64,000 bases of DNA. Origin: Desulfobacterales bacterium. Lineage in GTDB: Bacteria; Desulfobacterota; Desulfobacteria; Desulfobacterales; SpSt-501. Below, one piece after another: positions 9,754-15,775 of the stretch. Where the stretch lies: NCBI GenBank assembly GCA_030834695.1, contig JAUQXK010000094.1, positions 1-64,000 on the forward strand, written 5' to 3'. Every line of letters starts with the position of its first letter. Within the stretch, counting starts at the first letter, position 1. The position numbers were made by a program, and so were the translations under genes. The notes beneath the pieces are model-generated. The model saw only the letters and a list, made by a program, of their open reading frames with translations, searched no databases and was not told the DNA's origin.

Positions 9754-10152
9754 ATGAGAGCATTGATTGCGGAGGACGATTTCACCAGCCGGTTGATGCT
9801 GCAGAAGCTGCTGGCGCCCTATGGCGAGAGTCATGTGGCCATCAACGGCAAGGAGGCGTTGGATGTGTTCCGGGCGGCGAAGCAGAAGAAGCGGCCGTAC
9901 GACCTGGTCTGCCTGGACATCATGATGCCGGAAATGGACGGACAGTCCGTGCTGAGAGAAATACGGACCCTCGAAGAAGGGGCGGGAATCCGCCCCGGCC
10001 AAGGGGTGAAGGTCCTGATGACGACCGCGCTCAAGGACCCGAAAAACGTCATGACGGCCTTCCGTGAGCTGTGCGACGGCTACCTGGTCAAGCCCATCGA
10101 TAAAGCCAAGCTGCTGAAGTATCTGCGGGAATTCGGGCTGGTCGAAAACTAG
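9754..10152 (+). CDS. Single-domain response regulator (CheY-like receiver)
   Basis: This is a 132-residue stand-alone receiver with no output domain. The acidic pocket is AEDD, the phospho-acceptor Asp lies in VCLDIMMPEMDG, the Thr switch in LMTTAL and the Lys in LVKPID. It starts 24 bases after the giant kinase, so it is probably the terminal phospho-acceptor or a diffusible output of that relay. It closely resembles the receiver at 15368-15775 (both share RALIAEDD/KALIAEDD, FRELCDGYLVKPID), marking a recent duplication. The function of the output is unknown. Confidence 0.92.
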   Translation: MRALIAEDDFTSRLMLQKLLAPYGESHVAINGKEALDVFRAAKQKKRPYDLVCLDIMMPEMDGQSVLREIRTLEEGAGIRPGQGVKVLMTTALKDPKNVMTAFRELCDGYLVKPIDKAKLLKYLREFGLVEN

Positions 10153-10189: not shown

Positions 10190-10828
10190 TCAGGAAACCG
10201 AGCAAAGATTGTTTTTGACCGCGTAGGCAACGAGCGCGGCGTTGGTGCTCATTTCCATCTTTTCCAGGATCCGGGTGCGGTAGGTGCCGATCGTCTTGAT
10301 GCTGAGGCCCAGGTCGGATGCGATTTCCGTTAATGGTTTTCCGTTGACGATGCTGCAAAAAACCTGAAATTCTCGATCGGACAAGCGGTGATGGGGGGAT
10401 GGAGCTGCGCCGTTGACCAGGTCGGCGGCCAACTTGGCCGCAAACTCCGGGCTGATGTATTTCCGGCCGGCCATGACCTGGCGGATCGCCCGGATCAGTT
10501 CCTCCGGAACGCTCGCCTTGTTGAGGTAGCCTGCAGCACCGGCCTTGAGGGCTCGGGACGCCAGCTGGTCTTCGGGATGGATGCTCAAAATCAAGACCGG
10601 AATTTGGGGCTTGATGGCCTTGATGCGTTTGAGCGTCTCAAAGCCCCCCATCCCCGGCATGGTCATGTCCATCACGGCAACGTCGTAGCTCTTTTTCTGG
10701 ATTTCCCTCAGCAGACATTCTCCGCTGTCCGCCTCTCCGGCCACGCAGATGTCTCCGGACTGTGCCACGATTTTTGATACCCCTGCCCGGACAACCGGGT
10801 GGTCATCGGCAATAATGACGTGGATCAT
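10190..10828 (-). CDS. NarL/FixJ-family response regulator with LuxR-type HTH
   Basis: The 212-residue protein has an N-terminal receiver (IIADDHPVVRAG; phospho-Asp in VAVMDMTMPG; Lys in GYLNKAS) and a C-terminal LuxR-type helix-turn-helix (LSDREFQVFCSIVNGKPLTE, then LGLSIKTIGTYRTRILEKM). It is a DNA-binding transcription regulator. Its start overlaps the end of the adjacent REC-PAS-HisKA_3 kinase by four bases, the standard arrangement of a NarX/NarL-type pair, so that kinase is the likely partner. It is convergent with the lone receiver at 9754-10152. Target genes are unknown. Confidence 0.94.
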   Translation of the reverse strand: MIHVIIADDHPVVRAGVSKIVAQSGDICVAGEADSGECLLREIQKKSYDVAVMDMTMPGMGGFETLKRIKAIKPQIPVLILSIHPEDQLASRALKAGAAGYLNKASVPEELIRAIRQVMAGRKYISPEFAAKLAADLVNGAAPSPHHRLSDREFQVFCSIVNGKPLTEIASDLGLSIKTIGTYRTRILEKMEMSTNAALVAYAVKNNLCSVS

Positions 10829-12276
10829 TCCGCTCCCGCCTCCCTTGGAATCGTGACGTTAATGGAGGTGCCTTCAACGGGGATCCCCTGGATGTCCACT
10901 TTGCCCTTCAGCGCCGAAATCCGTTCGCGGATCCCCTGAAGCCCAAACGAAGCAGCGCCGTTGGACTGAATGTCCGATATGCCGATTCCGTCATCGGTCA
11001 CCATCAACGTAGTCGCATCCTCCGTCTGTTCAAGGTTTATCCGGACCCATGACGCGCGCGAATGGCGGGCGACGTTGGTGAGGCACTCCTGCAGAATTCG
11101 GAACAGATCGGTCGCGACGTTCGCACCGACCCGGATCTCTTCGGGCTCGATGCGGGACCGGCATTCGATGCGGGTGCGCTTCTCGAAATCGCCGGCCAGC
11201 CATTCCACCGCCGCCGCCAGGCCGAGACTGTCCAGGACACTCGGCCGCAGCTCGGTCGAGATGCGCTGGACGGACAAAAGCGTGGAGTTCACCAGCTGCT
11301 CCATGGAGGCGAGCCTTTCCGCCACCGGCGCCTGGTTCAGGTCCGCGGTGCATTTCAGCAGGGAGATTTCGATCTGCAGAGCCGTAAGGTTTTGCCCGAG
11401 GTCGTCGTGGATTTCGCGGGCCACCCGGCAGCGTTCACCCTCTCTGGCTCGTTGAAGCGCGTGATAGAGCTCACGCAGCCGTGCCTGGGCCGCGGAAAGA
11501 TCCTGCTGGGTTTCCGCCAGCAGGGTTTCGGCACGCTTGCGGTTGGTAATGTCGTGTCCGATGATGAGCGTGGCCGGCCGGTTTTGGTAGAGGGTGGGTG
11601 CCGAGACCGACTCGACCAAAATGCGGGTGCCGTCCCGGCGGACCAATTCGAACTCCGCCGGCGGGTTGCCCCGGCCCTTTTCGGTTTCCTCCAGGCGCTC
11701 GGCTGCTTTAAAACGGTATTCGGGTGCAACCACATCCAGCATCGGTACGCCCAGGATTTCATCCGGTCGCTCGAACCCGAACATGCGCACACCGGCCGGA
11801 TTGATGTAGACGAACCGGCCGTTTTGGACGACCTCGACCGAGCTGGGCGATGATTCGGCCAGGGTTCGATAGCGGTTTTCGCTCTCCCGAAGTTCCTTTT
11901 CCTTTCGGGCTTTGTATAAAGCCGTCTCGATCGTTGCCCGGAGTTCCTTGCTTGAATAGGGCTTGACGATATAGCCAAACGGTTCGCTCCGCTTGGCGCG
12001 CTCAAGCAACTCGCTGTCGGCATAGGCGGTGATGAAAATGACGGGAATGTCCAGCGTTTGATGGAGGCATCGGGCCGTTTCCAGGCCGTCTTTATCCCCG
12101 TTGAGCTTGATGTCCATCAGAGCGATGTCGGGCTCCTCCCGACCGGCCAGCTCCAGCGCGCGATTGCCCGTGGAGGCCAGCCCAACGACCTGATAGCCCA
12201 TGGATTGCAGCTGGAACTCAAGATCGGCCGCAACCACGAACTCATCCTCGACAATCAGAATCCGGTTATTTTCCAT
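10825..12276 (-). CDS. Sensor histidine kinase, REC-PAS-HisKA_3-HATPase
   Basis: A soluble NarX/DegS-type kinase with an N-terminal receiver (RILIVEDEFVVAADLE; Asp in IALMDIKLNG), one PAS domain (about residues 130-250), a coiled linker, a HisKA_3 dimerisation domain with REIHDDLGQNLTALQ (phospho-His near 290) and an HATPase (RHSRASWVRI, DDGIGI, FGLQGIRERI). The start at 12276 is preferred because GAGGG lies about 9 bases upstream and the protein then begins MENNRILIVEDE, matching the neighbouring paralog. An ATG at 12291 would add five residues. No membrane segment is seen, so the signal is cytoplasmic or arrives by phosphorylation of its own receiver. Confidence 0.92.
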   Translation of the reverse strand: MENNRILIVEDEFVVAADLEFQLQSMGYQVVGLASTGNRALELAGREEPDIALMDIKLNGDKDGLETARCLHQTLDIPVIFITAYADSELLERAKRSEPFGYIVKPYSSKELRATIETALYKARKEKELRESENRYRTLAESSPSSVEVVQNGRFVYINPAGVRMFGFERPDEILGVPMLDVVAPEYRFKAAERLEETEKGRGNPPAEFELVRRDGTRILVESVSAPTLYQNRPATLIIGHDITNRKRAETLLAETQQDLSAAQARLRELYHALQRAREGERCRVAREIHDDLGQNLTALQIEISLLKCTADLNQAPVAERLASMEQLVNSTLLSVQRISTELRPSVLDSLGLAAAVEWLAGDFEKRTRIECRSRIEPEEIRVGANVATDLFRILQECLTNVARHSRASWVRINLEQTEDATTLMVTDDGIGISDIQSNGAASFGLQGIRERISALKGKVDIQGIPVEGTSINVTIPREAGAE

Positions 12277-12297: not shown

Positions 12298-13017
12298 TCA
12301 AGACGAGTGCAGGGGCAGCAGCATGCGGACATTGGTTCCGCGGCCCGGTGCCGTCTCAACGAAAATGGCTCCTCTGGCTTCGAGCTCGCCCTCCCAACTT
12401 CCACCCCGGGACAGCAGCGGCGCCACTTTATGATCGTGAATTTCGATCGATTCCGGCGAGTAGTGGTCCCGCCAGCTCGATGCCCGGGCCTCCTCGAGGG
12501 AACGGCCGAACAGCCTTTCATGCGCGGGGTTGACGTAGGCCAGCCGGCCGTCGGGCAGGCTGATGGCGATGGCCTCCTGGGACGCCTCGGCAAGGGCTTT
12601 GAAGAGCTGAAGCTCGGCCTGGCTTTCCCTCATGCGTTTATCGATCCGGGCTCGGTATAAGCCGACTTCGAGGGCCGCGCGCAGCTCTTCCTTGGAATAG
12701 GGCTTGAGCAGGTAGCTCAGCGGTTCGCAGTGTTTGGCCCGGTCGAGAAAGCTCTTGTCGGAATAGGCGGTAAGGAAAATGGCCGGGATGCCGTACTCGT
12801 TCTTCAAGCGCAGCGCCGCCTCCGTTCCGTCCATCTCTCCCTTGAGCCGGATGTCCATCACGGCCAGGTCCGGCGGGTCTTGGGCGGTGACCTCCAAGGC
12901 CTGCCGGCCGGAGGACGCCAGCCCGACCACGCGGTAGCCCATGGCTTTCAGATCGGCATCCAGGTTTGCCGCCAATACGTATTCGTCTTCGACCACCAGG
13001 ATCTTATCTTCGGCCAT
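12298..13017 (-). CDS. REC-PAS protein ending in a remnant of a kinase ATPase domain (internally deleted kinase)
   Basis: The 239-residue protein begins with a receiver (KILVVEDEYVLAANL; Asp in LAVMDIRLKG) very similar to that of the next gene. A PAS domain follows from about residue 130 and runs to GGSWEGELEAR. The sequence then changes abruptly to AIFVETAPGRGTNVRMLLPL, which is the G2-box end of a histidine-kinase HATPase domain. HisKA and most of HATPase are absent, so it cannot be a kinase. The reading frame is intact and tightly packed (5 bases from the upstream kinase), so it is probably expressed. The start at 13017 opens the receiver; an upstream in-frame ATG adds an unrelated 14 residues. 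Confidence 0.85.
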   Translation of the reverse strand: MAEDKILVVEDEYVLAANLDADLKAMGYRVVGLASSGRQALEVTAQDPPDLAVMDIRLKGEMDGTEAALRLKNEYGIPAIFLTAYSDKSFLDRAKHCEPLSYLLKPYSKEELRAALEVGLYRARIDKRMRESQAELQLFKALAEASQEAIAISLPDGRLAYVNPAHERLFGRSLEEARASSWRDHYSPESIEIHDHKVAPLLSRGGSWEGELEARGAIFVETAPGRGTNVRMLLPLHSS

Positions 13018-13021
13018 ATAC

Positions 13022-15367
13022 CTACACCTTATCCGGTTGCAGCGGCCATCGGATCGCAAACGTGGTGCCGCCGTTCACATGAACCTCGCAGGTTCCTGCC
13101 AGCTGGTGTTCCACCAAGCCCCGCACCAGCTGCAATCCCAAGGAAGATACGCGGGACAGATCAAAACCAGAGGGAAGCCCCACACCGTTGTCGCATACCT
13201 CGAGCTCGGCGTGCGCGTCTTCGGCCAAGCGGGCGCTTATGTGGATCTTTCCGCCGGTGGCCTTCGGAAAGGCGTATTTCAGGGCGTTGGTCACCAGTTC
13301 GTTGATGATCAGTCCGCAGGCGATCGCCTGATCCATGCTCAGCAGGATTCCGTCCGCCAGGACCGTGATGCGGGTATCGGTCTGGCTATTGAAGACAGCG
13401 TAAAGCTGCTTCAGCAGGTTGGTCAGATAGCCGGAGAGCCGGATGGTGGATAGGTTCTGACTGGCATGCAGGGTCTCGTGAATGACGGCCATGGCGTGGA
13501 TGCGCTGTTGGCTCACTTGCAGGGCCTCGGCGATCGCCGGGTTCTTCAGTTGGCCGACCTGGAGATTGATGAGGCTGATGACCACCTGCAGGTTGTTCTT
13601 GACCCGATGGTGGATCTCGCGAAGCAGAATCTCCTTCTCTTTCAGGGCTGCCAATATGATCCCTTCGGCCGTCTTGCGATCGGTGATATCCTGCAAAACT
13701 CCCGTCGCGCGAGATGGTTTCCCCTGTTCATCCCGCGCGATGACCTTGCCGGCGTCCGAAACCCATTTCCATTCCCCTGATTTGGCGCGCATTCGGATCT
13801 CTGCCTGAAAAAAATCCGTGCGCCCTTCCAAGTGGTCGTTCAGAATGGCTTTGACGCGCTCAGCGTCATCGGGATGGATCCGTTTTTCCCAGCTGGTCAG
13901 GTTGGGCTCGACTTCCGATAATTCGTACCCCAGGATTTCCGCCCATCGATGGTTGCGAACGATGCGGCCGGTTGAGAGATCCCAGTCCCAAAACCCCAAA
14001 CTGGCCCCCTTAATAACCAGGTCCAGCCGTTCTTTATTGGCGCGCAGGTCATTCTCTATCAGCTTGCGTTCGGAGATTTCGGAAGCCAGGCTCTCCCACG
14101 AATGCTGCAGCCGGCCGGCCATCATGTTGAAGGACTGCGTCAGCTTGCTGATTTCAATTACGCCGGAATCATCGCGAACCGATTGGGCGCGCTGGCTATG
14201 GGACAACGCCTGCGTCGATGCATCGAGCTGCGTGATCGGCCGGGTAATCCATCGGGCGGAAAAAGCCGCAATGAACACGGCCGCCGCAAGAGCGCATCCG
14301 ATCAGAAGGGCCGTGCTCTGATTGTTGGCGGCAATTTGGGCCATGAAATCCATCTCGGGTATGACGACCGCAATGAGCCAATCCAGACCGTACTCGTCGT
14401 CGATCGGTGACACCTGAAGGAAGTGACGCCGGCCCTCGATCGAAAAGTCCAGGTACTGAACCCCGTGGATCAGGCGGTAGTCGCCGAAGCGTTCGGTCAG
14501 GAATTCAGCCGTGGCCTGAATGAGTCGATTGCCGCTTTCTCCGGCATGAAGCCGCCTCGGCGGGTTGTTCTCGGCGGGTTTTATGTACGCTGGTTCGTTG
14601 CTCGAGGCGGCAACCAACCTTCCGGAGCGCTCCATGATGAACCCCTGGCCGGAATTGCCGATTTCAATGCTCTGCAGAAAGCTGTTGATGTGCGACAAAA
14701 AGAGGTCAACCGCAACCACCCCTAAAAAATTCTGCTGATGATCATACACCGGGAGGCTGGCTGCGATGGCCATATCCTGCCCTGTGAACAGGACGTAAAT
14801 ATCGCTCCAGGACGCTTTTCCCTTCTTGACCGCACTCGTGTACCATGGCCGGCTCCTCGCGTCATAATCGGGGATGGTCGCGACCAAGGCGGTCCGAATG
14901 CCCTGGTGGTCGGTCGCATATTTCTTGAACGGGCCTGCGATAAAACCGTCGGTAACGATCACGTAGCTGCCGCCGTACGGCCCATCACGGCCGGCATCCA
15001 CCAACCCGCCGGCGGGGTTGCCGAAATAGATGCTGGTCACCGAATCGAAAATCTGGACTTGCTGCCAAAAGATATGTTCCAGCGTGGCCGCATCCCTGGG
15101 ATCCAGCGCCCCTTGGCGCATGGCGATGGCGTTGGCCAGGTTTATATGTTGGGGCGCACTGATAACGTCTCTCACGTGCGCGTCAATGCTGGCGACCAGC
15201 CGGCTCCTGAGCTGGCCGACCACCTCGTTGACCGCGTTGGCTCCGTTTCGAAACGAGAGGAAGCCGGTAAGGGCGACCGCCGATACCAGCAGGGTGACAT
15301 ACGGCACGAGCAGCAGCACTCGCAGCCGGACTTTTCTGTGTGATCTATTTTGTGGGAATAACGCCAT
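13022..15367 (-). CDS. Membrane sensor histidine kinase, Cache-HAMP-PAS-HisKA_2-HATPase
   Basis: The 781-residue kinase has a transmembrane helix near residues 15-38 and a large extracytoplasmic double-Cache domain to about 335 ([19 protein letters not shown] is typical of PDC folds). A second helix lies near 340-362, then HAMP (about 363-415), PAS (about 440-560) and a HisKA_2-type H-box, [17 protein letters not shown], with a C-terminal HATPase. HisKA_2 kinases often signal to diffusible or REC-PAS partners. Here a stand-alone receiver gene ends directly before its ATG with no spacing, and a REC-PAS gene follows five bases after its stop, so both are candidate partners. Confidence 0.94.
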
Positions 15368-15775
15368 TTAAGCCGGTCGGTTTTCGATCAGCCCAAAGCT
15401 CTTCAAATAGCCCAGCAGCTTGCCCTTGTCGATCGGTTTTACCAGATAGCCGTCGCACAGCTCGCGAAACGCCCCGAACACGTTCTTCGCATCTCCCAAT
15501 GCGGTGGTCATGAGGATCTTCACGCCGTTGCCCGGCAGTACGCCGGCGCTCTCTTCGAGGACCCGGATTTCTCTCAGCGCCGCTTGACCGTCCATCTCCG
15601 GCATCATGATGTCCAGGCAGATCAGGTCGAAGGGCTGTCTTTTCAGCGCCGCCCGTTTGAACGCCTCGACCGCATCGCGGCCGTTGGCGACGCTGTGAAT
15701 GCTGCCATGCGGCGCCAGCAGGTTTTGAAGCAGCAGCCGGCTGGTCAGGTCATCCTCAGCAATTAATGCCTTCAT
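15368..15775 (-). CDS. Single-domain response regulator (CheY-like receiver)
   Basis: A 135-residue lone receiver: AEDD acidic pocket, phospho-Asp in ICLDIMMPEMDG, LMTTAL switch region and LVKPIDKGKLL. It is first in a minus-strand operon ahead of the Cache/HisKA_2 kinase, with the stop codon immediately adjoining the kinase ATG. It is a close paralog of the receiver at 9754-10152, including the C-terminal FGLIEN/FGLVEN motif, so the two may share partners or compete for phosphate. Confidence 0.92.
   Translation of the reverse strand: MKALIAEDDLTSRLLLQNLLAPHGSIHSVANGRDAVEAFKRAALKRQPFDLICLDIMMPEMDGQAALREIRVLEESAGVLPGNGVKILMTTALGDAKNVFGAFRELCDGYLVKPIDKGKLLGYLKSFGLIENRPA

Follow-up and report, generated by a model that had tools for sequence, protein, structure and literature searches.

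REC-PAS regulators without an obvious output domain are described in archaea (PMC5847659). Receiver-only proteins have been described as shuttles or sinks for kinases; MrrA and LovR are receivers without an output domain that exchange phosphate with kinases (both points from PMC5964349). DivL of the Rhodobacterales, a relative of kinases, has been pared down to the PAS domain (PMC9430884). A gene at 12298–13017 on the minus strand of the window—the whole stretch of 64,000 nucleotides analysed, from a Desulfobacterales bacterium—encodes a protein of 239 amino acids (P0001) that resembles each of these without matching any. Like the archaeal regulators and L098, a locus from another genome, P0001 consists of a REC domain followed by PAS sequence and has no output domain. 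L098, however, ends near its own PAS end, and the HATPase tail that closes P0001 is absent from the REC-PAS loci compared. MrrA and LovR are dedicated receivers with tested phosphotransfer and no visible kinase deletion, whereas P0001 appears to be kinase-derived and its receiver is a predicted one. Rhodobacterales DivL likewise lacks the kinase core but retains PAS rather than REC and is described for a bacterial group, whereas P0001 has been found in one genome. A limited look at the open literature found no published report of an architecture composed of REC, a cut PAS, and an HATPase tail. We regard the locus as a snapshot of evolution rather than as a novel type of system.

The open frame of the gene reads as in the original prediction, which described a REC-PAS protein ending in the tail of a kinase ATPase domain. 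The REC domain (Pfam match at residues 6–116, E 7e-21) and the start of a helical linker occupy residues 1–125 (12643–13017, minus strand). With its REC fold, acidic pair (E10, D11), phospho-acceptor aspartate (D55), threonine (T83), and lysine (K105), P0001 has the features of a receiver. The PAS domain follows at residues 138–214 (12376–12606, minus strand); its Pfam matches begin at about residue 138 and all end at 214 or earlier, and comparison with a full-length paralogue, P0002, and with structure models places its end in the third-last strand. The complete PAS that follows REC in a REC-PAS response regulator is therefore missing. Alignment with P0002 assigns the deletion junction to Ala214-Arg215-Gly216 (12370–12378, minus strand) and residues 216–239, together with the original gene end, to the C-terminal tail of an HATPase domain (12301–12372, minus strand). 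The H-box helix and the N, G1, and G2 boxes of the ATPase, which characterize a histidine kinase, are lacking. No Pfam match to HisKA was obtained for P0001, and none to HATPase was listed at E<=1, the latter presumably because only about 20 HATPase residues remain.

A search of the organism's own genome revealed, besides the P0001 gene itself, a stretch on contig C95 that is 54% identical over residues 2–217 and lies in a frame of 508 codons. Its product, P0002 (506 amino acids, L044:15-1535), is a REC-PAS-HATPase protein that shares the tail of P0001 and contains the 267 residues P0001 lacks. The three best Pfam PAS matches in P0002 run to 248–252 and HATPase is found at 381–502. Since the Pfam HisKA model did not reach 0.001, the phospho-acceptor domain was identified through the motif HDFNN, which we take to be the H-box. 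Its position is 283; the N-box, G1, and G2 are at 389, 442, and 466. In a global alignment, residues 1–214 of P0001 pair with P0002 without a gap, and a single long gap of 267 codons (801 nt) then extends to 24 residues before the stop, from where the tail aligns to the end. Lost within the gap are the end of the PAS domain and the H-, N-, G1, and G2 boxes. Identity amounts to 60/120 in REC, 51/77 in PAS up to the cut, and 12/20 in the tail.

The assignment of the tail is specific. Its best ungapped placement on P0002 starts at residue 482 of 506 with a score of 72, which none of 5000 shuffled tails reached (mean 12.6, s.d. 4.7, maximum 38). Nucleotide comparison with P0002 agrees with the position of the junction: the last 242 nt before it match at 170 positions in the left register and at 77 in the right, while the 60 nt after it match at 38 positions in the right register and at 17 in the left. 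Gly-Ala codons flank the missing stretch in P0002, GGAGCC on the left and GGGGCT on the right, and the short gene has GGAGCC; this is compatible with a deletion that perhaps occurred between short Gly-Ala codon repeats. As to direction, 23 of the 27 P0002 matches listed outside the own genome (389 genomes including the own one, E<=1e-75) span REC to the end of HATPase, and the wide occurrence of the long form in other genomes supports it as the ancestral one. On strong support from these comparisons, the P0001 gene thus appears to have arisen from the gene of a REC-PAS histidine kinase through a deletion that kept the reading frame. The HATPase tail named in the original prediction is real, and the absence of HisKA and most of HATPase is borne out by Pfam and by the gap relative to P0002. 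The proposal that the core was lost in this way is strongly supported by P0002, a full-length paralogue within the genome that also stands behind a HisKA_2 kinase, and the alignment with a full-length kinase that had been suggested for locating the deletion ends yielded both. One refinement is required: the PAS domain itself is cut, as the strands at 221–232 and 238–247 of the P0002 model fall in the missing part.

The short gene lies in a row of genes on the minus strand. A receiver-only response regulator (15368–15775, Pfam) heads the row and is followed by a dCache-HAMP-PAS-HisKA_2-HATPase kinase (13022–15367, Pfam), which is the likely phosphate donor. Only 4 nt lie between the stop of this kinase and the start codon (ATG) of the short gene. 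Downstream follow a REC-PAS-HisKA_3-HATPase hybrid kinase (10825–12276, Pfam; 483 amino acids if translation starts at the ATG at 12276, as is probable) and a LuxR-type response regulator (10190–10828), the start of which overlaps the hybrid kinase stop. The short gene has kept the original stop and lies close to both of its neighbours; frame and spacing are intact as first described. At Rfam gathering scores, nothing was found in the window. Two receiver-only regulators that are 70% identical, at 9754–10152 (plus strand) and at 15368–15775 (minus strand), flank the gene row; the former follows a hybrid kinase of 1995 amino acids on the plus strand.

P0002 is preceded by a HisKA_2 kinase as well, and the kinase part of this protein is 60–61% identical to that of the kinase at 13022–15367. 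Contig C95 ends 14 bases past P0002. Because the P0001 gene and P0002 both follow related HisKA_2 kinases, the HisKA_2 kinase and the REC-PAS kinase were probably duplicated as a two-gene unit, the P0001 copy then losing its core. Among seven stretches of other genomes around related HisKA_2 kinases, a similar REC gene follows the kinase directly on the same strand in two (L138, L142); in L138 it is a REC-GGDEF gene that overlaps the kinase end. L140 and L143 carry a gene for a REC-PAS-type kinase nearby on the opposite strand, and in L141 the kinase is preceded by a REC-only gene. No similar REC match was obtained in L139 or L144. A third, rearranged copy is present in the own genome on contig C71 (L102:4380-7669). 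One stretch of it shares 74% identity with the PAS domains at the front of the C95 HisKA_2 kinase; further on, behind other sensor domains, comes a kinase core with 65% identity to the P0002 core. The matches of C71 to the C95 pair cover PAS and kinase-core parts only, with neither REC nor a HisKA_2 part.

The P0001 receiver shares 53% identity with the receiver of the downstream hybrid kinase and 50% with the P0002 receiver, compared with 31–35% for three other receivers of the window. Since the hybrid and P0002 receivers are 54% identical, making the hybrid REC as close to P0002's as to P0001's, this similarity marks a receiver group rather than a unique pair. The five active-site positions checked are identical in P0001, P0002, and the downstream hybrid. 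Unique changes in REC number 16 for P0001 and 16 for P0002; in PAS, two outgroups gave 7 versus 8 and 8 versus 6 (P0001 versus P0002). No faster evolution or decay of P0001 relative to P0002 is measurable with these small counts. The lack of excess changes means that the P0001 receiver is either still under selection or the product of a young deletion, which would look the same.

How these observations translate into function can be sketched from sequence and gene order. The ancestor would have been a REC-PAS histidine kinase of the HDFNN type, within a duplicated two-gene unit together with the preceding HisKA_2 kinase. One internal in-frame deletion of about 801 nt appears to have removed the end of the PAS domain together with the phospho-acceptor helix and almost the entire ATPase. 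P0001 cannot autophosphorylate because its H-, N-, G1, and G2 boxes are missing, and what remains is a complete receiver with a helical linker. Judging by position and receiver similarity, this receiver is probably phosphorylated by the upstream HisKA_2 kinase, and it may drain or compete for phosphate bound for the similar REC of the downstream REC-PAS-HisKA_3 kinase, thereby damping that branch. The account as a whole, in which the deletion created a phosphate sink or competitor for the upstream kinase, is in our estimate about evenly poised between right and wrong. It is narrowly favoured over a recent remnant, in which the same deletion left a product without a selected role that persists since it is in frame and the genes behind it are undisturbed; this is a serious contender, at somewhat below an even chance. 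A remnant would agree with the confinement of the short form to one genome, the searches having returned no orthologue, with the cut PAS, the end of which has low confidence in the P0001 model, and with arithmetic, by which one third of random deletions are in frame. Against it speak the intact REC active-site residues without an excess of changes and the still short distances to the neighbouring genes. That the short gene has been kept as a receiver adaptor, as the original prediction held, is unproven, and the most specific version of the sink/competitor account—a selected phosphate sink, born by one in-frame deletion and placed between the kinase that was once its donor and a hybrid kinase that competes with it—seems rather unlikely. 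If that version were true, a new regulator would have been caught being born, with an intact ancestor-like copy in the same genome. If the product is used at all, one mutation would have rewired a phosphate cascade from activation to damping, and the unaltered paralogue serves as a control. If it is not, the locus would be a commonplace case of a gene on its way to being lost, in a genome with many histidine kinases.

Two further readings are each very improbable. According to one, the hairpin of the HATPase tail stands in for the two strands missing from the PAS domain, a new fold that would give a working REC-PAS sensor adaptor. The tail does follow directly after the third-last PAS strand, and the C-terminal tail region of HATPase would form two strands in its native domain. 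In the P0001 model, however, REC is mostly above pLDDT 90 and a confident helix spans 109–145, whereas residues 210–239 are below 50 and the strand preceding the junction is unformed. The model of the P0002 front (residues 1–256; mean pLDDT 94.6, no residue below 50) shows all three strands (208–215, 221–232, and 238–247) with high confidence. The alignments behind the two models were similar, not identical; in that for P0001, 41 other rows were cut near the same place (one PAS only). With almost no aligned rows over the tail, its low confidence is weak evidence of unfolding, and a tail hairpin completing the PAS domain is unsupported by a model that had little alignment there. The modelling suggests that the P0001 PAS probably does not fold or work, which makes a sensing adaptor less likely than a bare receiver. 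According to the other reading, the short gene is an artefact of assembly or binning and the organism carries the full-length gene. The genome is indeed a draft of 149 contigs with 4.96% contamination, but the short gene lies inside a 69.8-kb contig. When the 201 bases around the junction were searched against the own genome (35 other matches at E<=10), the best other match was 75% identical over 48 bases, and the exact matches listed were no longer than 16 bases. Assemblers join on longer exact overlaps, so that a misjoin at six bases is unlikely; for the misassembly that the original prediction had named among the results that would refute it, the junction offers no long repeat as an explanation. 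Nor did an orphan piece of the P0001 core stand out when the own genome was searched with the kinase core (78 matches): the best two matches were P0002 itself and the C71 copy (65%), which has other sensor domains in front, and none of the remaining ones listed exceeds 48% identity, among them a 34% piece at an end of contig C31.

In the class, 139 out of 389 genomes, counting the own one, match P0001 at E<=1e-20 (seven candidates scored per genome, with the best E-value of every matching genome included). The best match outside the own genome (E 1.1e-40, compared with 2e-155 for P0001 itself) is 41% identical over residues 4–197. Among the matches listed in the 389 genomes, none outside the own genome reached the tail and none was a short-form orthologue; a search of 40 genomes, the own one included, found no such orthologue either. 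The six genomes of the same genus gave no P0001 match at E<=1e-20. A pattern scan of genome contigs, which requires one of six exact peptides and can miss relatives, returned 13 relatives, none above 48% in the best segment. The comparison set comprised 45 distinct other-genome loci with a match extending to at least residue 165; for 30 of them the fetched DNA contains the whole frame. Frames below 300 amino acids were seen in four of the 45: two run off the end of the fetched DNA, one is the stand-alone REC-PAS protein L098, whose 6.6 kb yielded no kinase core, and one, L099, combines REC with part of a kinase helix. An HATPase tail closes none of the four, and none joins a cut PAS to an unrelated domain, the architecture that had been named as speaking against the original prediction. 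Among 19 short-frame loci of other genomes, three are REC-PAS, two of which run off a contig end, 11 combine REC with a cysteine-containing C-terminal part, and five combine REC with a kinase-helix part. The last five (L084, L085, L099, L101, and L103) come from five genomes of one genus and encode proteins of 222–240 amino acids with a piece resembling a phospho-acceptor helix (CHELNQP), too short for an ATPase; these are possibly REC-phosphotransfer proteins. The 11 proteins with cysteines (L086–L092 and L094–L097) are 200–221 amino acids long and share a C-terminal motif around CxxCKKIR.
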